From the NCBI RefSeq assembly GCF_000308215.1, contig NZ_CAJE01000011.1, positions 1 to 64,000 on the forward strand: a stretch of 64,000 nucleotides of DNA, in the 5' to 3' direction. Under the pieces are notes generated by a model. It had not been told where the DNA came from. It saw nothing but the letters and a program-made list of their open reading frames with translations, and did no database searches. Within the stretch, counting starts at the first letter, position 1; the number at the start of each line of letters is the position of its first letter. The DNA is from Methanomassiliicoccus luminyensis B10. Its GTDB lineage: Archaea; Thermoplasmatota; Thermoplasmata; Methanomassiliicoccales; Methanomassiliicoccaceae. Both the position numbers and the translations under genes were made by a program. Positions 3,697 to 54,780 of this stretch are shown piece after piece.

Positions 3697-4718
3697 GCGC
3701 ACCCTCCACGAGCGTGGTGGTGTGCACCTATAACCGGATCCAGTGGCTGACCAAATGCCTGCGCTCCCTGGAGGCCCAGGACCCCCGCCCCGATGAGATC
3801 ATCGTGGTGGACGGGCCGTCCACTGACGGCACCAGGGACATGCTGGAGCTCCTTGCTTCCAAGGGCGACCTCAAGCTGGTCCACCAGAAGAAGCTGGACG
3901 GCATCTCCTCCGCGCGCAACATGGGGCTGGCGGAAGCTACCGGCGATATCGTCTGCTTCATCGACGACGACGCCATAGCCCAGCCGGGATGGCTCGCCAA
4001 CGTCATCTCCGGCTACACCGATCCATTGGTCGGCGGGGTGGGCGGTCCGGTATGCTTCTCGGACGGCTCCCCGGCCATGGGTCGGAACGCCGTGTCGCCC
4101 GAAGGCCTGTGGTTCGACGAGTCCAGGCGGGAGAGCATTGACGGCCTGTACCCCGTTATGGTGGGCTGCAACATGTCGTTCCGGAGGGTCCCGCTGCAGG
4201 AGATGGGAGGCTTCGACCCATACTTCCGGTTCCATCAGGATGAGACCGACGCCTGCCTGGGAATGCTGTTCCGCGGCTACCGCATCGGTTACTCCGAGGG
4301 CGCGGTGGTGTGGCACGAATGGTGCGAAGGTTCCTACCGCCAGGACCGCATCCGCTGGTACATCAAGCTCCGGTACCTGTGGGGAAGGAACAATTCGTAC
4401 CTCGTGAGGAAGCATTTCGGGGACAAGGTCCCTTTCACCAAGTACGCCGGGAACCGCATGACCGGCTTCCTCCAAAAGAGGGTCCCGCGCGGTATCCTGG
4501 AGAAGGAGACCACCGGGGGGCATGAAGCGTCCGGCGGGAGCGTCGCCATGCCCAAGTTCTTCGTGCTGGTGGGCGGGGTCTCGGAGGTCTTCGGCCTGAT
4601 CAAGGGGTGGACCGACAGCGGGCACGTCAGCCCGCGAGCGCCCGGCGGGGCCGCCAGCCACCGCTTGGTGGGGCCGGACCAGCATTTCAGGTACCGGCGG
4701 AGAGGGCTCAGGAAGTAG
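3693..4718 (+). CDS. Family-2 glycosyltransferase (GT-A)
   Basis: A 341-residue GT-A enzyme. The N terminus reads SVVVCTYNR, the nucleotide-binding acid is in IIVVDGPSTDGT, and the metal-binding DXD-like motif is CFIDDDA (about residues 88-94). A later segment, DETDACLGMLFRGY, fits the catalytic-base region. The GTG at 3693 overlaps the methyltransferase stop (GTGA); the open frame continues upstream, but that part is only antisense to coding logic of the methyltransferase. The C terminus carries no clear membrane helix. The gene converges on the secreted-protein gene, and their ends overlap by 11 bp. Confidence 0.9.
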   Translation: MSAPSTSVVVCTYNRIQWLTKCLRSLEAQDPRPDEIIVVDGPSTDGTRDMLELLASKGDLKLVHQKKLDGISSARNMGLAEATGDIVCFIDDDAIAQPGWLANVISGYTDPLVGGVGGPVCFSDGSPAMGRNAVSPEGLWFDESRRESIDGLYPVMVGCNMSFRRVPLQEMGGFDPYFRFHQDETDACLGMLFRGYRIGYSEGAVVWHEWCEGSYRQDRIRWYIKLRYLWGRNNSYLVRKHFGDKVPFTKYAGNRMTGFLQKRVPRGILEKETTGGHEASGGSVAMPKFFVLVGGVSEVFGLIKGWTDSGHVSPRAPGGAASHRLVGPDQHFRYRRRGLRK

Positions 4719-7296
4719 CCGCCCTCACTTGTACTTCCGCCCATGAGGTCCCGTAGCTCCGCTGGAAGGTTACCCACCCCAGGTCGTCGGAGCGCAGCGT
4801 GGCCACGACCTCGCCGTCGACGATGACGTCGTAGTCGCGGTCCGCGTCGAGGCCGCCGACCCAGATGCGGGTCTCTCCGCCGGTGGAGGTGGCCCGCATC
4901 AGCACGCTGTCGGCGGAGCGGGACACCAGTTCCGCCGAGGCTTCGCCGCCGTCATACTGATAGGCGGCGAGGTCCCCCCGCTTCACGATGGTGCCCGTAG
5001 CCTCCGCGCCGATGGTGCCGCGGAAGACCACGGTGCCGTCGGCCCGGTAGATCAGGTCGCCGGTCTGGGTGATCCCCGGCCCCGCCTCGTAGTACCCCGG
5101 CCCGGGGAGCACCAGCTCGAAGCTGATGGCGCTCCCGTGCAGGTTGGTCAGCTTGTACTCGCCGAACTCCTCGGTGAAGGATATGGTCGGCGATCCGGAG
5201 CCGGTCAGCACCACCATCTGGCGGTCGGTGGTGACGGTCGTTCCCTCCGAGCCCATGTCCAGGGTGGCCACCGGTATGGTGGGGTCCCGGTTCATCGACG
5301 CCCCCATGGCCACGAACATGTCGTGGGCCATGATCAGGTTGTGCATCTGCTTGGAGTAGCTGGAGTACGACAGCAGGTCCACCGAGAACCCGTAGCGGGC
5401 CGCCCCGAACAGCACGGAGTACACCGCGCCCTGGTCCCGGTCGGCGTCGTAGTTCTGGTACACCACGATGTGGGGGCGGTACTCCTCGGGGATGTTGTTC
5501 ACGAACAGCATCGTGGATATCGCGGTGTCCCTGAGGCTCATGTTGTAAGTGTCCACCGCCTCCCAGCCCTCGATCACGGCCGCGTCGCTGACCATGGCCA
5601 GCTGTATCTGCGGGGTGAAGGAATTGGTGATCACGAAGTCCCAGTGGCCCGAGGCCAGGGACTCCAGCACCAGGTCGATGTACCCGTCGTAGATGAAATC
5701 GCCCTTGTCGCTGTAGTCGCTCCGCAGCCTGTTGTTCTCCCCGTACCATGAGTTCATCTCGTCCCAGAACACCCCGCGGGAGGACCACCACCAGTCATTG
5801 TAGGCGTCCTGGTTGATGAGGTAGTTCCGGTACGCGGAGCTGGCGGCGCTGGCCACCGCGGTCCCGTCGGAGAGGGAATAGGCGTGGCCGGCGGAGTCGT
5901 ACAGGCGCCACGCCGTGGGCATGGTCTCGCTGGACGTCGACATCCGCTGGGCGGACTTGTAGTGCCAGTTCACCTGGTCCGGGTTGGTGGACTGGGTCGC
6001 CACCAGGATCTCCGAGCTCTCGATCCAGTTCCTCAGCTCGCTGGTCCAGGTCCCGAAGTCGTTGAACATCAGGGGGAACTGCCCGGAGTGGGAGTTGCCG
6101 TACTGCTCGGCGATGCTTTCCGAGACCCACTGGGCGTAGCCGGCATCGTGGCCGCGCGGCTCGCCGTCAACGTACTTGTACGGCCGCACGAACATCGACC
6201 AGGTCTGCTCCGTCCCCAGGCCGGGGTCCGGGACCACCGACCCGGTGGAGGTGAACTTGAGGGCGAACACGGAGGCGCCTCCGCCGCCATAGTCCTTCAT
6301 CCATATTGGCGAGTACAGGTACGCCTCGGTCTCGTCGAAGCCCCACTCCACTCCCATGGTACCGCCCGGCACCCTCATGTCGAAGGCCGGGGCGAACATC
6401 TGGTAGGCGGGGAACCACCCTCCGATGCCGTTGGAGGCCGGCGTGCTCTCCGGGACCCCCGGTATGTACCGGTGGGGCTGGCCGTCGGCGAACATGTTGT
6501 ACATGCTGCCGCTCGAGGAGTACAGGCCCACGAAGTAGGTGGCGATCACGTTGGACGTCCCCGGGGTGTAGGTGGCGTCGAGTTCGAAGTAGTCGCGGTA
6601 GATCGTGAAGCTCTGCTTGATGCTGAACTGGGGGCACCATTCCAGGAACCATATGGTGTTGCCGTCCTGGCCGTGGTCGGTGATGCTCATGGACACCCAG
6701 TTCATGTCGTTGCCGTTCTGGTCGACCGTTCCCTCGCTGGCCGTCTGGGGGTTCACCCTCCGGTAGCGGATCACGTCGTCGCTGAAGTACGGCTTTATCA
6801 CATAGTCGACATAGCCGTTGTCATTGGTGGCGGTGATGGAGTATTCGTCCGTCGTGATGATGTACGAGCCGCCCGATGTCTCGAGCGCGATGGTGTCCGA
6901 GAGAACGCCCAGCTCGAAATCGGTGGCCGGGTCCACCTCCTCTTCCGTATCGCCGTTATCGCCGGTATCGGTGCCGCCGGAGGGGTCCGAGGGATCGCCG
7001 TCCCCATTCTGGTCGGGGGCCGTGGGGCCGGTGGGGGAGTTGTTGGAAACAGGGAACGTGGAGTTGTCCACCCCCCCGATTATGGTCCCCTGCTGGGGGA
7101 CCGGCTGGTCTGTGAGCAGTGCCAGCGGTACCAAGGTACCTATCAGCAGCAGGGGGACCAGAAGGAGCGAGGCCGGCCTCGATAGACGGGCCAGCGTCTT
7201 CCTCAGGGCCCTGCGTGCTTTATGGCGGGCCTCGGACGGCGAGGAGCTGTCCTCCCCCCGTCCTGCGTTCGGCTGCTTCGCTGTTCTTCCTTTCAA
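4708..7296 (-). CDS. Large secreted or surface protein with possible glycosidase-like core
   Basis: An 862-residue protein. A basic N terminus is followed by a signal anchor (about residues 42-61, SLLLVPLLLIGTLVPLALL). Next comes a low-complexity Asn/Asp/Gly/Thr/Pro linker (about 75-120), typical of exported archaeal proteins. The large ectodomain is rich in Trp and Tyr, and its middle (about 500-560) has acid/Trp patches such as VFWDEMNSWYGENN and DGYIDLVLESL that resemble the end of a TIM-barrel strand. A beta-rich C-terminal region follows. I infer a carbohydrate-active enzyme but cannot assign a family. The start is a TTG at 7296 with an in-frame stop upstream. An unusually structured leader precedes it. 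Confidence 0.75.
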   Translation of the reverse strand: MKGRTAKQPNAGRGEDSSSPSEARHKARRALRKTLARLSRPASLLLVPLLLIGTLVPLALLTDQPVPQQGTIIGGVDNSTFPVSNNSPTGPTAPDQNGDGDPSDPSGGTDTGDNGDTEEEVDPATDFELGVLSDTIALETSGGSYIITTDEYSITATNDNGYVDYVIKPYFSDDVIRYRRVNPQTASEGTVDQNGNDMNWVSMSITDHGQDGNTIWFLEWCPQFSIKQSFTIYRDYFELDATYTPGTSNVIATYFVGLYSSSGSMYNMFADGQPHRYIPGVPESTPASNGIGGWFPAYQMFAPAFDMRVPGGTMGVEWGFDETEAYLYSPIWMKDYGGGGASVFALKFTSTGSVVPDPGLGTEQTWSMFVRPYKYVDGEPRGHDAGYAQWVSESIAEQYGNSHSGQFPLMFNDFGTWTSELRNWIESSEILVATQSTNPDQVNWHYKSAQRMSTSSETMPTAWRLYDSAGHAYSLSDGTAVASAASSAYRNYLINQDAYNDWWWSSRGVFWDEMNSWYGENNRLRSDYSDKGDFIYDGYIDLVLESLASGHWDFVITNSFTPQIQLAMVSDAAVIEGWEAVDTYNMSLRDTAISTMLFVNNIPEEYRPHIVVYQNYDADRDQGAVYSVLFGAARYGFSVDLLSYSSYSKQMHNLIMAHDMFVAMGASMNRDPTIPVATLDMGSEGTTVTTDRQMVVLTGSGSPTISFTEEFGEYKLTNLHGSAISFELVLPGPGYYEAGPGITQTGDLIYRADGTVVFRGTIGAEATGTIVKRGDLAAYQYDGGEASAELVSRSADSVLMRATSTGGETRIWVGGLDADRDYDVIVDGEVVATLRSDDLGWVTFQRSYGTSWAEVQVRAATS

Positions 7297-7297
7297 G

Positions 7298-7466
7298 AGC
7301 GCATCCCATCCCTTCGCGCTTTAGATAGCCGACCCGGCTCCGCCCCTTCGGGGGCGCCCATCCCGGGTCGGAACCCCGCTCTTCGGCTTTCGCCGTCGAG
7401 CGGGCAACGGGGCGCTTTGCCCCGTTCCAAAGGCGAGGTTTCCTCCAAGAGAGTTATCCTCGCCTT
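7298..7466 (-). ncRNA. Candidate structured RNA or 5' leader with five hairpins
   Basis: The stretch folds into successive strong stems. AAGGCGAGG (7430-7438) pairs with 7458-7466, and AACGGGGC (7406-7413) with 7419-7426. CCCGCTC (7375-7381) pairs with 7398-7404 and encloses a CGGC/GCCG stem whose minus-strand loop is GAAA. CCGACCCGG (7329-7337) pairs with 7363-7371 and encloses GCCCC/GGGGC with a 4-base loop. AGCGC (7298-7302) pairs with 7316-7320. On the minus strand a TTTTAAAC TATA-like box (7489-7498) lies about 23 bp upstream of the first stem. The last stem abuts the TTG start of the secreted-protein gene. A regulatory leader or a processed RNA is inferred. The plus strand would instead place a stable c(UUCG)g loop, so the strand is not certain. 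Confidence 0.5.
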
Positions 7467-7488
7467 CGCGGCCCCCTTCCAATTGCAC

Positions 7489-7498
7489 GTTTAAAACC
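7489..7498 (-). promoter_or_regulatory. TATA-like box upstream of the structured leader
   Basis: On the minus strand this reads GGTTTTAAAC in an otherwise GC-rich setting. Its distance to the first hairpin (about 23 bp) matches usual archaeal box A to transcription-start spacing. No SD-like signal separates the leader from the TTG start. Confidence 0.4.
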
Positions 7499-7609
7499 GT
7501 TGCCGTTGTGGTATCACCGCTGATTATCTTCACGGACGTCGCTACGGGGGCATGCTGGCCCTACTCCGGCAGGCCTTTACCGGGGGCGGAGAGCAGCCAA
7601 TATTGCGCA

Positions 7610-8695
7610 TCAGGTCTCGTAGGGGGCCCAATCCTCCTGCCGGGGGCGGGGGCCCTCCCCCTCCGCCACGATGTCCGCGGCCATCCTCCGGTAGTCATTG
7701 GCGAAGCGGTCCATGGAGAACCTCTTGGCTATGACCTCCCGGGGGTGGACGGCGGGGCCGTCCAGCACCTCGTCGATGGCGTCGCTGTAGTCCTTGGCGT
7801 CGAAGGTGGGCACGATCCTGCCCACCGCCTCCTCGTCGAGGTCCTCGAACACCCCGGTGCGGGAGACGATCACAGGCTTGTCGCAGGCCATGGCCTCCAG
7901 GGCGGTGTACCCCACCGATTCGTACCGGGAGGGGAACAGCAGGAAGTCCGCTGCGGCGTAGTGCACCGGCATGTTCTCGTTGGGCACGTTCTTACGGGCG
8001 ATGCAGTTGCCGTTCATATCCGCCGAGGTCACGCACAGGAAGCGGACGTCGGGGCGCATCGCCGCGACCTTCTTGACCACATCGAACCCTTTGGTATTGT
8101 CCGGCCGGCCCACGAATATGCCCAGGGGCCCGTCCCACTTTATGCCCAAGGCCTCTCGTGCCTCATCCTGCCTCATCGGCCGGAAGCGGTCCATGGGAAC
8201 GCCGTGCTCGATGACCGAGGACCGGACCCCGTAGTGGTCCATCAGCTCTCTTCTGGTCTTGTGGCTCACCGCCACGCACCTCTTCCCGTGCGCGGCCACC
8301 ATCTCGAAGAAGGGCGAGAAGTACCGGGACGGGATGTAGCCGGGCGTGGACCTCAGGGTCTGCTCCGCCAGCCCTATGAGGGTGAAGTGGAATATGTTGA
8401 CCATGGGGATGCCCGGCGTCAGCACCGACAGCCACCATCCCGCGATGGAGTTGGATATCACCAGGTCGAAGTCCTCCCTCTTCATGATCTCCCGGAACCT
8501 CCTGCCGATGGCCAGCCCCTTGCGCGGCTCCTCCAGGTTCAGGTGGTCCAGGCCGAGGTCCAGACCGGTCCTCCGGGCGTCGGAGTATGTGATCAGGGTC
8601 AGGTCCGGGAACACCGTCTTCAGGTGCTCGTCGAACATCTCGGTGCCCCCCCGCACCTCCTCGAACTTGTATAGTGAAAGCAATGCTACTTTCAT
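7610..8695 (-). CDS. Family-4 glycosyltransferase (GT-B)
   Basis: A complete 361-residue GT-B enzyme. The N-terminal acceptor domain includes LVISNSIAGWWLSVL and VAVSHKTRREL. The donor domain shows LGIFVGRPDNTKGFD, the E-x7-E type motif in FPSRYESVGYTALEAMACDKPVIVS (Glu about 276 and 284) and a terminal helix with FSMDRFANDYRRM. It transfers a sugar from a nucleotide donor in surface-glycan assembly. The ATG at 8695 sits 66 bp from the divergent deacetylase gene at 8762, so the two share a short promoter region. Donor and acceptor are unknown. Confidence 0.92.
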   Translation of the reverse strand: MKVALLSLYKFEEVRGGTEMFDEHLKTVFPDLTLITYSDARRTGLDLGLDHLNLEEPRKGLAIGRRFREIMKREDFDLVISNSIAGWWLSVLTPGIPMVNIFHFTLIGLAEQTLRSTPGYIPSRYFSPFFEMVAAHGKRCVAVSHKTRRELMDHYGVRSSVIEHGVPMDRFRPMRQDEAREALGIKWDGPLGIFVGRPDNTKGFDVVKKVAAMRPDVRFLCVTSADMNGNCIARKNVPNENMPVHYAAADFLLFPSRYESVGYTALEAMACDKPVIVSRTGVFEDLDEEAVGRIVPTFDAKDYSDAIDEVLDGPAVHPREVIAKRFSMDRFANDYRRMAADIVAEGEGPRPRQEDWAPYET

Positions 8696-24478: not shown

Positions 24479-25230
24479 ATGTACCCCTCATACATCGATG
24501 AGCCAGGCAAGCCAGATAGAAATCATTCTGAGAATGAGTTTGTCCTGGCAGCGCTCACGATTAATGAAAAGGATTGGCAAGCCGTCGATAACAAGGTGAA
24601 ATTATTAAAGATTAAACACTTTCCAACGCTGAATCCAGATTCATTTGAACTCCACACCTCGGACATTATGAACCATGAGGGTATGTATAAAAAGATACCA
24701 CTGGAAGCCAGGCTGAGGCTTGTCGAGTATATGCTCACGATAATCTCAGATATCGATTGCACTCTGACAGCTGTCGTAATCTATAAACAAAAAATATGGA
24801 AGCCGGATTTGGATGTCGACACTTGGGCTTTGCGGCTACTCTTTGAAAGGCTGTGCTGGCCCTGGAGGATAAGAACAAGCCCACTGTAAGTAGCGGGAAA
24901 CCCGTCGAGTATGGCATATTGCTTATCGATTCGATTACTAAGAAATATGATGCTAAGATTAGAGACAAGATTTTGTGCCTATTTAGAAATGGCACCTATT
25001 ATAAGAGCAACAAATACCTGATCGAAGACCCGTTATTTGTCGAATCAAAATACAGGCATTTGTCACAACTAGTGGATTGTGCTGCATATTGTATTAGGAG
25101 GAAATATCGGACCCCTCCTAGACCTGATGAACAGGAGATATACGATCGGTTTAATAGATTGATAGAGGATAAATTCTTGAAAGATAAGCATGGGCAGTTC
25201 CTTGGACATGGCCTAAAATTCTTTCCATAA
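24479..25230 (+). pseudogene. Frameshifted DUF3800 protein gene
   Basis: Two overlapping frames together make one DUF3800 protein of about 250 residues. The first part (24479-24889) opens with YIDEPGKPDRN, the family's acidic motif (normally Asp-Glu-Ser-Gly), followed by EFVLAALTI. Homology runs to LLFERL. The second part (from about 24853) continues with LALEDKNKPTV, GILLIDSITKKYD and CAAYCIRRKY. A single lost base near 24852 explains the break. DUF3800 proteins have an RNase H-like fold and sit among mobile and defence genes. The DNA is much more AT-rich than its neighbours. A sequencing error is possible. Confidence 0.7.
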
Positions 25231-25243
25231 AATATGGAGTTGA

Positions 25244-25290
25244 GTGGCCTAGGGGCCACAGTCCCTCCATGGGTCGCCATGGGGCGACCC
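25244..25290. repeat. Two adjacent perfect hairpins with 4-base loops
   Basis: GTGGCC-TAGG-GGCCAC (25244-25259) is followed 11 bases later by GGGTCGCC-ATGG-GGCGACCC (25271-25290). They lie between the convergent DUF3800 remnant and the HisA/HisF-related gene, followed by a T- and A-rich stretch. A bidirectional terminator is the simplest reading; a small RNA is possible. Confidence 0.45.
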
Positions 25291-25351
25291 GCAGATTTAC
25301 TATCACTTTACTACTTCATGAATCTTTCCCTTTCTTTAAAAAAAGAACCGA

Positions 25352-26401
25352 TTAATACGAGAGGGGCGAGCCGTCGGGAGAGCGTAAGGCATTCTTGCTC
25401 GCGTACGTCGTGGCAGAGGCCTCGCTCTCTGACGGCAGCGCCCTGCCCTCCTCGGCGATGAGCTCGCTGATCATGGAAGTGAAGGGGTCCATGAAAGCGC
25501 CCTTAAGTCCGGCGGCGCGCAGCCCCTCGAGGTCCTTCTCCACCACCCCTCCGCCCAAGATGATGCCGGCGTCCAGGCGGGACAGACGGTCCACCAGCCT
25601 CTGGTCCGCCCCGGTCCGGCGCCCCAGGCGGGGCAGGTCGATGACCCCGATCTCCTCGTAGCCTATGTCCGCGAGCTCGGCAATGGCGTCCTCCAGCGCC
25701 CTCGGCCCTCCCTTCCGGGAGCGCCATACCACGTCCCCGGCGAGGTGCACGCAGGGAACGGCCCGGTCGGACAGCTCGAACACCTCCTCGAAGATGCCCA
25801 TGTCCGGCGCGGTCATGGTGCCGACCAGCGCCCTGGAGACGTCCATGGTGAACGAGTCGAAGAGGTCCTGCACGTCCCTCATGCCGAGGTCCAGCCACAC
25901 CTGGTGCTTGGACCTGATGAGCGCCTTGAGGACATCGAAGTTCGGCCTGCCGTCGTTGATGCCGGCGAGGTCCAGCACCACCACTTCCTTGGCCGAGTAC
26001 CGGGGGCCCTGCACCGCCTTCCAATAGCGGCTGAACCTGGTCCGCTGGCCCTTGATGACGTAGCTGCCGTCCCACTCCACCTCCACCACATCGGTGATCT
26101 GCGCCACCGGCAGGTCGATCACAGGGATCCTCAGCAGGGACTTGGTGTCGATGGGCATTATGGGGATATGGATGAAACCGCTCAGGACATCGGCGAGCTT
26201 TTCGGCAAGACTGCGCTGGAAGGCCTTCAGCTCCTCCAGGTCGTTGAAGTCCAGGGGGACCGCGGTCCTCCCGCAGTTGCGGCAGATGTAGCCCCCATCA
26301 TTGTGGTCCACCCAGGGCAGGGGGCCGCCGAACAGCAGGGCAGGATGCGTGTCCATGCTCCCGCAGTGGGGGCAGGCCCTCAAGGTAACCTTTTCCGACA
26401 T
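25352..26401 (-). CDS. HisA/HisF-related TIM barrel with N-terminal zinc ribbon
   Basis: A 349-residue protein. A zinc ribbon (CPHCG at about 10-14 and CRNCG at about 41-45) is followed by a HisA/HisF-like barrel. Recognisable parts are VVVLDLAGINDGRPNFDVLK, VWLDLGMRD, IGVIDLPRLGRRTGAD and the phosphate loop GIILGGGVVEKDL. It matches the methanogen hisAF-related family, not authentic HisA; its substrate is unknown. The ATG at 26401 has a GAGGAGG SD 4 bases upstream; a GTG at 26413 would place that SD inside the gene. A TTTATAACC box lies near 26426-26434 on the minus strand. Confidence 0.85.
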   Translation of the reverse strand: MSEKVTLRACPHCGSMDTHPALLFGGPLPWVDHNDGGYICRNCGRTAVPLDFNDLEELKAFQRSLAEKLADVLSGFIHIPIMPIDTKSLLRIPVIDLPVAQITDVVEVEWDGSYVIKGQRTRFSRYWKAVQGPRYSAKEVVVLDLAGINDGRPNFDVLKALIRSKHQVWLDLGMRDVQDLFDSFTMDVSRALVGTMTAPDMGIFEEVFELSDRAVPCVHLAGDVVWRSRKGGPRALEDAIAELADIGYEEIGVIDLPRLGRRTGADQRLVDRLSRLDAGIILGGGVVEKDLEGLRAAGLKGAFMDPFTSMISELIAEEGRALPSESEASATTYASKNALRSPDGSPLSY

Positions 26402-53127: not shown

Positions 53128-54780
53128 CACGGGGGCAGCTTGTTTCGGACTCGTATAATTGCTGGTCCTGATAGGAATTCAGAGTTCCTCAGCTTCGTCT
53201 GAGTTCTGCAAAAACAAATAAAACTAAGGACGAACGTCATATCACGCTGAACGAGAATAAATCGTTTTCCGTCGGCACCGTGCTGCTGGTCGACGATCGG
53301 TACGAGCAACTTGATTTGGATGCTATCATCGGCTCCCTCAAGGACAAGGGCATTCCTATCAATCCTCCCGTATGAGGAATGTTCGCCTACAAGCTGGGCG
53401 ATAACTTCAGCGTTCTTCAAGCGGGCGAATGGATGAACAGAACGGAAGTGGGAGAGCATTACGAACTGCCTCCATTCAACGTGAAGACGCTGTATCGGGC
53501 GGTGGAGACGCTCGGTCGCAACCGCGAACGCATCGTCCGCGAGCTTCAGGACCGCGTCCTGAAGCTGTTGGACCTCGAGACAACGGACATCCTCATGGAC
53601 TGGACGTCCATCGTTTACTACGGCGATATGGCCTCCCTGGCGAAGTACGGCTATTCACGAGACCATCGGCCGGACAAGAAGCAGGTGACGCTGGGGGTGG
53701 CGCAGCTCGCTCCGCCGGTGAACGTTCCCATGGCCATGACCGTCGAGGCTGGCAACATGAACGACGAGGAGCACTTCCGTAGCACTTACAATCAGGTGAG
53801 GAACGTTCTGGACGACAGCTCATTGATCGTCTTCGACAAGGGAGCGAACGACAAGAGGAACCTGGAGAGCAGCGTCCTCGACCGCAACGACTACCTCACC
53901 TCGAAGAAGCTCAACATCGCCGACGACAAGGTGTTCCGGTCGTTCGACCGGAACGACTGGGAGAGCATAGACGAGGGCGTCTATGCTCTCAAGCGCATGT
54001 TCCCGTCCCGCGTCAACTACTACTTCTTCTCCGAGAAGCTCAAGGACGAGCATCTTGCTTCGAGGCGGCGCAAGGCGGAGCGCCTCCTGGCGGAGGCGCG
54101 GATGATACAGGACAGTCTGGACGACGGGAAGCGGCTGCCGAAGCGGTTCCGCATCAACGATCCCCTGGTCGATGTCCGCTACGACTACCAGACCAAGCTG
54201 GCATCGATGGACGAACAGGAGGCGCTCCGCCTCCTGCTGGACCAAGTGATCGACGGACGGGAAGGCTGCTTCTGCCTGACCTCGTCGAGGGATATGGATG
54301 CCGAGGAAGCGCTTCGCATCTACCGCTCCAAGGACGCCGTGGAGAAGCTGTTCCATTCGCTGAAGAGCGAGATCGAGGTGAGGCCGCTGAGAGTGTGGTC
54401 GGATGACGCCGTGTACGGTGTTCTTCTTCTAGGATTCATCGCTCAACTGATGATAAGTTTGACACGCTTCTTCGTCGCTCCAGTCAAGAGCGTGTCAACG
54501 AAATTCATCTCGAACTCGTTACAAAATTTGACACTAACGGTCGTTCGGAGCGAGGGCGGTCGGAAACAACGGCACTATTCCAACTTCGACGCTCTCAATC
54601 GAGCAATATTGGCAGGTTTCCTGGCGGAAACTGACCGTTGCCGCCCTGGGAACGGTGCCCCGGGGCGGTTTCGAGCATCTCAAAACGATGTGTCAAATTC
54701 TAGAACCCAGTGAAAACTTGAGGGTCAGGTGTCAAAGTTAGGATGTATGGTCTTCCGTCTTTCTAGTTATGCTCTAACGC
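53121..54780. mobile_element. IS4/IS1634-type insertion sequence, degenerate, ends unresolved
   Basis: A GC-rich block inside AT-rich DNA, carrying a DDE transposase gene (53175-54713). The ends are set by the change in composition and by neighbouring gene ends, not by proven terminal repeats. The motif TTAACAC near 53124 and TTGACAC on the opposite strand near 54731 are weak candidates for inverted ends. No target duplication was identified. The intact copy elsewhere would define the borders. Confidence 0.6.
53175..54713 (+). pseudogene. IS1634-like DDE transposase with in-frame stop
   Basis: The frame is open from 53175 (after a TAG) to a TGA at 53373-53375, then continues from an ATG at 53379 for 444 codons. 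The first part reads TVLLVDDRYEQLDLDAIIG and runs on naturally into MFAYKLGDNFSVLQAGEWMN, so the TGA is a nonsense mutation, not a boundary. The catalytic Asp is in DILMDWTSIVYYG, the second in SSLIVFDKGANDKRN, and the Glu in YRSKDAVEKLFHSLKSEIEVRPL. No start codon is visible for the N-terminal part. It may still make a shortened protein from 53379. Confidence 0.75.

Follow-up and report, generated by a model that had tools for sequence, protein, structure and literature searches.

In the leader of the gene for an 862-residue secreted protein in Methanomassiliicoccus luminyensis B10, the most informative part is a site at the start codon at which a trans-encoded small RNA (sRNA) can dock. This leader lies at positions 7298-7498 on the minus strand of the window, by which we mean the whole stretch of DNA analysed (64,000 nt, positions 1 to 64,000 of contig NZ_CAJE01000011.1). 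Sequence comparison supports its reading as a conserved structured cis-regulatory mRNA leader with compensatory changes in its stems and a single gene downstream. A preliminary description of the window had seen five hairpins here and proposed such a leader; it had missed the sRNA docking site formed by hairpin 5 and the short coupled frame to which, in relatives, the TTG start codon belongs. It is likely that the sRNA pairs with the leader of the secreted-protein mRNA and represses initiation at TTG.

Docking site and small RNA family

When the whole leader was used for a DNA search beyond the source genome, only short matches were returned, and the recurrent one, at query positions 196-213 near the 3' end of the leader and obtained from nearly every genome of the order, was the motif shared by the sRNA and its targets. 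The docking site, GAAGGGAUGGGAUGCGCUCU (7315-7296), can form 20 contiguous pairs, one of them G-U, with the sRNA loop, and its final base doubles as the first T of the TTG start. Among all sites in the 64 kb, on either strand, it gave the best predicted hybridisation (-41.6, as compared with -33.0 for the next site and a mean of -13.5, sd 4.3). The sRNA gene of the source genome (G000) is found on contig C12 at 345184-345245; the RNA is about 70 nt long and carries the complement AGAGUGCAUCCCAUCCCUUC in its loop. The 14-mer AAGGGATGGGATNC was detected in 131 of the 147 genomes of the order, including all 74 of high quality, while a reversed control pattern was almost absent. One copy of the 14-mer per genome belongs to the sRNA gene, which is encoded in the C-rich orientation. 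The leader site itself is kept in G000, G013, G003, G009, and G011 and is degenerate in G007 and G005. Relatives lacking it have a GGAG Shine-Dalgarno-like element ahead of the short frame, so that the leader site appears to sit at the ribosome-binding position. That the leader site and the sRNA loop are complementary beyond chance, and that this is conserved, is well supported at the level of sequence.

The sRNA genes share one layout, consisting of a TATA box and then GGGAA-GGGCTAG-(GAGTGCATCCCATCCCTTCTGAC)-CTAGCCC-TTCCC, often with a T-run after it. In 49 of 50 loci, the TATA-like box precedes the loop by 48-60 nt. Two-sided changes affect 7 of the 11 pairs of the sRNA stem (0/500 shuffles), slid controls being far lower, and two distant lineages (L166, L168) have a quite different stem sequence around the same loop. 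The gene usually stands between a coiled-coil protein gene and ffh/srp54 (SRP54_N); the source genome has lost the ffh neighbour but kept the sRNA gene. The sRNA model matched in 193 of 400 genomes of the class and in 136 of 390 genomes of the phylum sample, some secondary low-scoring matches being antisense of target sites. With its own putative promoter and T-run the sRNA has the features of a separate gene, and its expression is predicted. Nothing scored above the Rfam gathering threshold at the sRNA locus, and no description of the family was found in the open-licence literature searched. As for a guide RNA, there was no match to a C/D or H/ACA family and the large open loop without an upper stem is not H/ACA-like, guide targets not having been searched.

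Target sites at division genes and elsewhere

Without exception, the sites at the recurrent target genes are rich in G on their sense strand. A short ftsZ-like gene, whose product matches Pfam Tubulin (E 4.5e-39) and NCBIfam ftsZ (the latter below its cut-off), has a site on its 5' side in 18 genomes of the order. Further ftsZ-like sites were detected elsewhere in the class and in five genomes outside it, and one family outside the order has the site at the start of a ribbon-helix-helix gene preceding ftsZ. CdrS-like genes of the ribbon-helix-helix type (NCBIfam CdrS at E 4e-12, short of the curated cut-off) have another recurrent site just past their stop codon; this 3' region could be a target or a sponge for the sRNA. 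In the source genome, the predicted energies were -45.4 for ftsZ, -41.6 for the leader of the 862-residue protein, -39.9 for a small DUF7557-like gene, -38.6 for the CdrS-like 3' region, and -31.8 for a further secreted protein. The other exact 10-11-mers of this genome lie within coding sequence and pair more weakly.

The sRNA loop and its ftsZ site change together. In genomes outside the class, CCCCUCCUAG or a close variant of it replaces the loop flank CCCUUCUGAC, and at the ftsZ site AAGGGAUGGG has mostly given way to AGGGGAUGGG. Pairing would lead one to expect that loop and site change in the same lineages. Cognate sRNA-ftsZ pairs from 25 genomes gave -43.5 against -41.0 (sd 0.6) for reshuffled pairs (0/20000), in a permutation test that ignores the relatedness of the genomes.

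Several arrangements were observed at individual sites. In a set of CdrS-like genes (L249, L250, L251, L221, L224, L225, L124-L127, L130, L133-L135), the G-rich site right past the stop is followed by a C-rich stretch (e.g., ACCTCCCCCC) and a T-run. At L206 and L218, the docking site is present in two tandem copies, one of them partial, ahead of the ftsZ-like gene. A small conserved protein without a Pfam family (DWMRNHTIxDLKRLAQEME; L085, L088, L092) has as its start codon a TTG that lies 18 nt past the beginning of the docking site, a layout like that of the window. Other signal-peptide proteins are encoded at L227 / L169 (G199), with the docking site of L227 overlapping the start codon, and at L100 (G000), where the site begins 14 nt before the start codon. 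In family f11 (L200-L203, L160, L161, L163), the flank of the sRNA loop is different (CCCACCAUCCUUCC) and no site was detected ahead of the ftsZ-like gene; the ftsZ-like leaders L200-L203 gave a weak match only, inside the gene. A single, longer FtsZ was found in G162.

The five-hairpin leader and the genes around it

The features of the locus are as follows, all on the minus strand.
7490-7496: TATA-like box TTTTAAA, seen in the sequence, orthologous leaders having TTTATAAT/TTTATAAG about as far from stem 1
7429-7468: stem 1, motif AGG-ANA-NCTC-loop-GAGG-ANA-CCT, from the fold, covariation, and the stem-1 model
7406-7426: stem 2, from the fold and covariation
7375-7404: stem 3 with a nested GAAA-loop stem, from the fold and from pairing in seven leaders
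7329-7371: stem 4 with a nested stem, from the fold; relatives have a stem at the same place, its sequence not conserved
7298-7320: stem 5, AGCGC/GCGCT (7298-7302/7316-7320), from the fold; its loop holds GAAGGGAUGGGAU
7296-7315: sRNA docking site described above
7220-7296: N-terminal extension read from TTG, a separate short frame in six relatives, fused in frame here
4708-7296: 862-residue secreted or membrane-anchored protein without a Pfam or NCBIfam family, with a weak GH31/GH97-like fold
7610-8695: upstream glycosyltransferase, from protein annotation and synteny in relatives

On the minus strand, 7298-7498 folds into five successive hairpins with a minimum free energy of -107.4 kcal/mol, compared with -83.9 (sd 4.2) for shuffled sequences (z -5.6; none of 200 shuffles reached this value). 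The perfect or near-perfect arms (7430-7445/7451-7466, 7406-7413/7419-7426, 7375-7387/7392-7404, and 7329-7337/7363-7371) bear out the earlier claim of five stems between the TATA-like box (7496-7490) and the TTG (7296-7294), and stem 3 includes the nested stem noted earlier, with its GAAA loop and GA/AA internal loop. The three-way junction also suggested there is predicted by neither fold. When all 200-nt windows of the 64 kb were compared, 7301-7500 was the stablest for its G+C content on the minus strand. The plus strand also folds well (-95.2, z -5.8), as inverted repeats should; the minus strand is taken as the natural transcript since the genes on both sides are minus-strand genes. A transcript from the TATA-like box would, by archaeal promoter spacing, probably start near the foot of stem 1. 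Elsewhere in the window, 25151-25450 and 53801-54100 also fold unusually well for their G+C content on both strands, and long inverted repeats were not found in them.

In relatives of the same family, the glycosyltransferase gene is again followed by a leader in which a TATA-like box precedes hairpins arranged in the same order. The covariance model built on stem 1 matched a single place in each of 11 family genomes, every time this leader (10 genomes beyond the source genome); one further leader (L021) was placed by synteny, and outside the family only two weak matches, near chance, were obtained (E 0.004 and 0.03). Two-sided changes were found in 7 of 15 pairs of stem 1, 3 of 8 pairs of stem 2, and 3 of 6 pairs of stem 3, in which all 42 cells were paired (seven leaders). 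Stems were counted one by one, a MAFFT alignment of whole leaders misaligning the later ones. As we grade it, the covariation of stems 1-3 is only of moderate strength, because the alignments are small (7-12 sequences) and because two-sided changes also arise when stem 1 is slid by one column, which gave more such pairs (10 vs 7) though far less pairing. The preliminary description is supported in its reading of a cis-regulatory leader: on the minus strand, the leader stands in the same place at the orthologous gene in the 10 further genomes, and its stems covary. Its remark that no known RNA class could be recognised agrees with Rfam, of which no family matched in the window at gathering or relaxed thresholds. 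The ideas of a sensor for cell-surface state and of a stable processed RNA found no support.

Homologues of the 862-residue protein are present in 22 of the 147 genomes of the order. A PDB sequence search with the family matched nothing; the AlphaFold model is mediocre (pLDDT 65), and Foldseek returned a likeness to GH31/GH97 glycoside hydrolases at low TM-score. A role in surface polysaccharides is plausible given the glycosyltransferase neighbours. In the sister genus, the TTG opens a frame of 28-32 codons; in each of the six leaders read, its TGA shares bases with the main gene's ATG (ATGA), and the short-frame peptides are alike (xKxHKxSxAAVW...VEVWP). In the third genus, GGAGG and an ATG stand in place of the docking site, and in those cases that were read the short frame again extends as far as the start of the main gene. 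The odd TTG start in the window is explained by the fusion of this short frame, in frame, to the 862-residue gene.

Proposed mode of action and known systems

Hairpins 1-4, counted from the 5' end, may serve the leader as protection or as spacers; stem 1, expected to begin where transcription starts, perhaps protects the 5' end. Hairpin 5 would display GAAGGGAUGGGAU beside the TTG start, and a loop-loop contact could then open into the 20-bp duplex over the ribosome-binding region and the first base of TTG, through which the sRNA would repress initiation. In relatives, where the short open reading frame (ORF) ends on the main ATG (ATGA), repression might be passed on by coupling. We infer that both RNAs are expressed.

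Some observations speak against repression at the TTG of the 862-residue protein. The leader site is limited to two genera, weak in 2 of 7 leaders and absent in the third genus, and part of it is paired in the predicted leader fold. The TTG as start of the 862-residue protein is itself putative. Moreover, most ftsZ sites do not cover the ATG but precede it by 55-90 nt, and a single mechanism for all targets is therefore unlikely. The moderate covariation of the leader stems and the relatedness left aside in the permutation test count on the same side.

The distance of these ftsZ sites from the start would also suit an sRNA that acts positively, its pairing opening stem 5 or shielding the 5' region from nucleases, so that the mRNA is stabilised or the start exposed. 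Stem 5 does pair bases adjoining the TTG, and the archaeal sRNA154 stabilises some of its targets (PMC5867862). However, the duplex in the window extends over part of the TTG codon itself and the site lies where relatives have their Shine-Dalgarno-like element, and we consider positive control unlikely. A leader that acted purely in cis, as a riboswitch or thermosensor-like element independent of the sRNA, would account for the strong, conserved multi-hairpin leader and the conserved ANA/ANA internal loop of stem 1; with no Rfam match, variable stems 3-5, no conserved junction, and hairpins that are simple and separate, it is quite improbable.

The recurrence of a G-rich element near several genes, at a ribosome-binding-like position, could mean that GGGAUGGGAU is a DNA- or protein-binding element (e.g., a transcription-factor or translation-factor site) to which the sRNA match is secondary. 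Yet the motif is asymmetric between strands, C-rich in the sRNA and G-rich in targets; the C-rich copy sits in a covarying hairpin loop at a fixed distance from a TATA box, and loop flank and ftsZ site co-vary between lineages, which makes such an element very improbable. Hairpins are common in a GC-rich genome, but stems that were a mobile or repeat element or arose by chance are scarcely credible here: the leader is single copy in the genome, relatives have different stem sequences at the orthologous position, and the z of the fold is -5.6.

Repression of initiation by the sRNA thus remains our preferred reading. More broadly, we see an even chance that a phylum-wide sRNA regulates division post-transcriptionally, through ftsZ-like and CdrS-like mRNAs, and that this family added a surface hydrolase-like gene by way of the five-hairpin leader. 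If so, envelope remodelling would be tied to division through a shared sRNA regulon. To our knowledge, few archaeal sRNAs have known targets, and none conserved phylum-wide together with its target was found in the literature searched. The leader has led to an sRNA whose loop and targets are predictable and can be tested in culturable Methanomassiliicoccales.

The proposed mechanism has precedents in sRNAs that mask ribosome-binding sites or ftsZ starts. DinR and DicF are enterobacterial sRNAs acting on the ftsZ mRNA at its start site; DicF has further targets and comes from a prophage transcript (PMC10907235). The likeness is a small RNA pairing with the ftsZ 5' region, whereas the archaeal sRNA is phylum-wide, has an invariant hairpin loop, and its sites are mostly upstream of ftsZ. 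In Methanosarcina, sRNA154 and sRNA41 mask ribosome-binding sites (PMC5867862); they too are archaeal intergenic sRNAs, sRNA154 acting via its loop, but their targets are nitrogen and ACDS genes and only Methanosarcina is described as having them, a distinction drawn from their description and not from sequence. Translationally coupled leader-peptide mRNAs resemble the relatives' short ORF, which ends ATGA on the main start, and differ in that the short ORF here starts with TTG, carries the sRNA site, and is fused in the window. For the CdrS-FtsZ2 circuit of haloarchaea, the control described is transcriptional (PMC8406309). In the present case, likewise, a CdrS-like ribbon-helix-helix protein is linked to an ftsZ-like gene, with the difference that an RNA docking site is present at both genes, which suggests an RNA layer over an archaeal cell division otherwise described at the transcriptional level (CdrS). 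Altogether, the kind of mechanism, an antisense sRNA on a leader, is known, and what is new is the sRNA family with its conserved targets.
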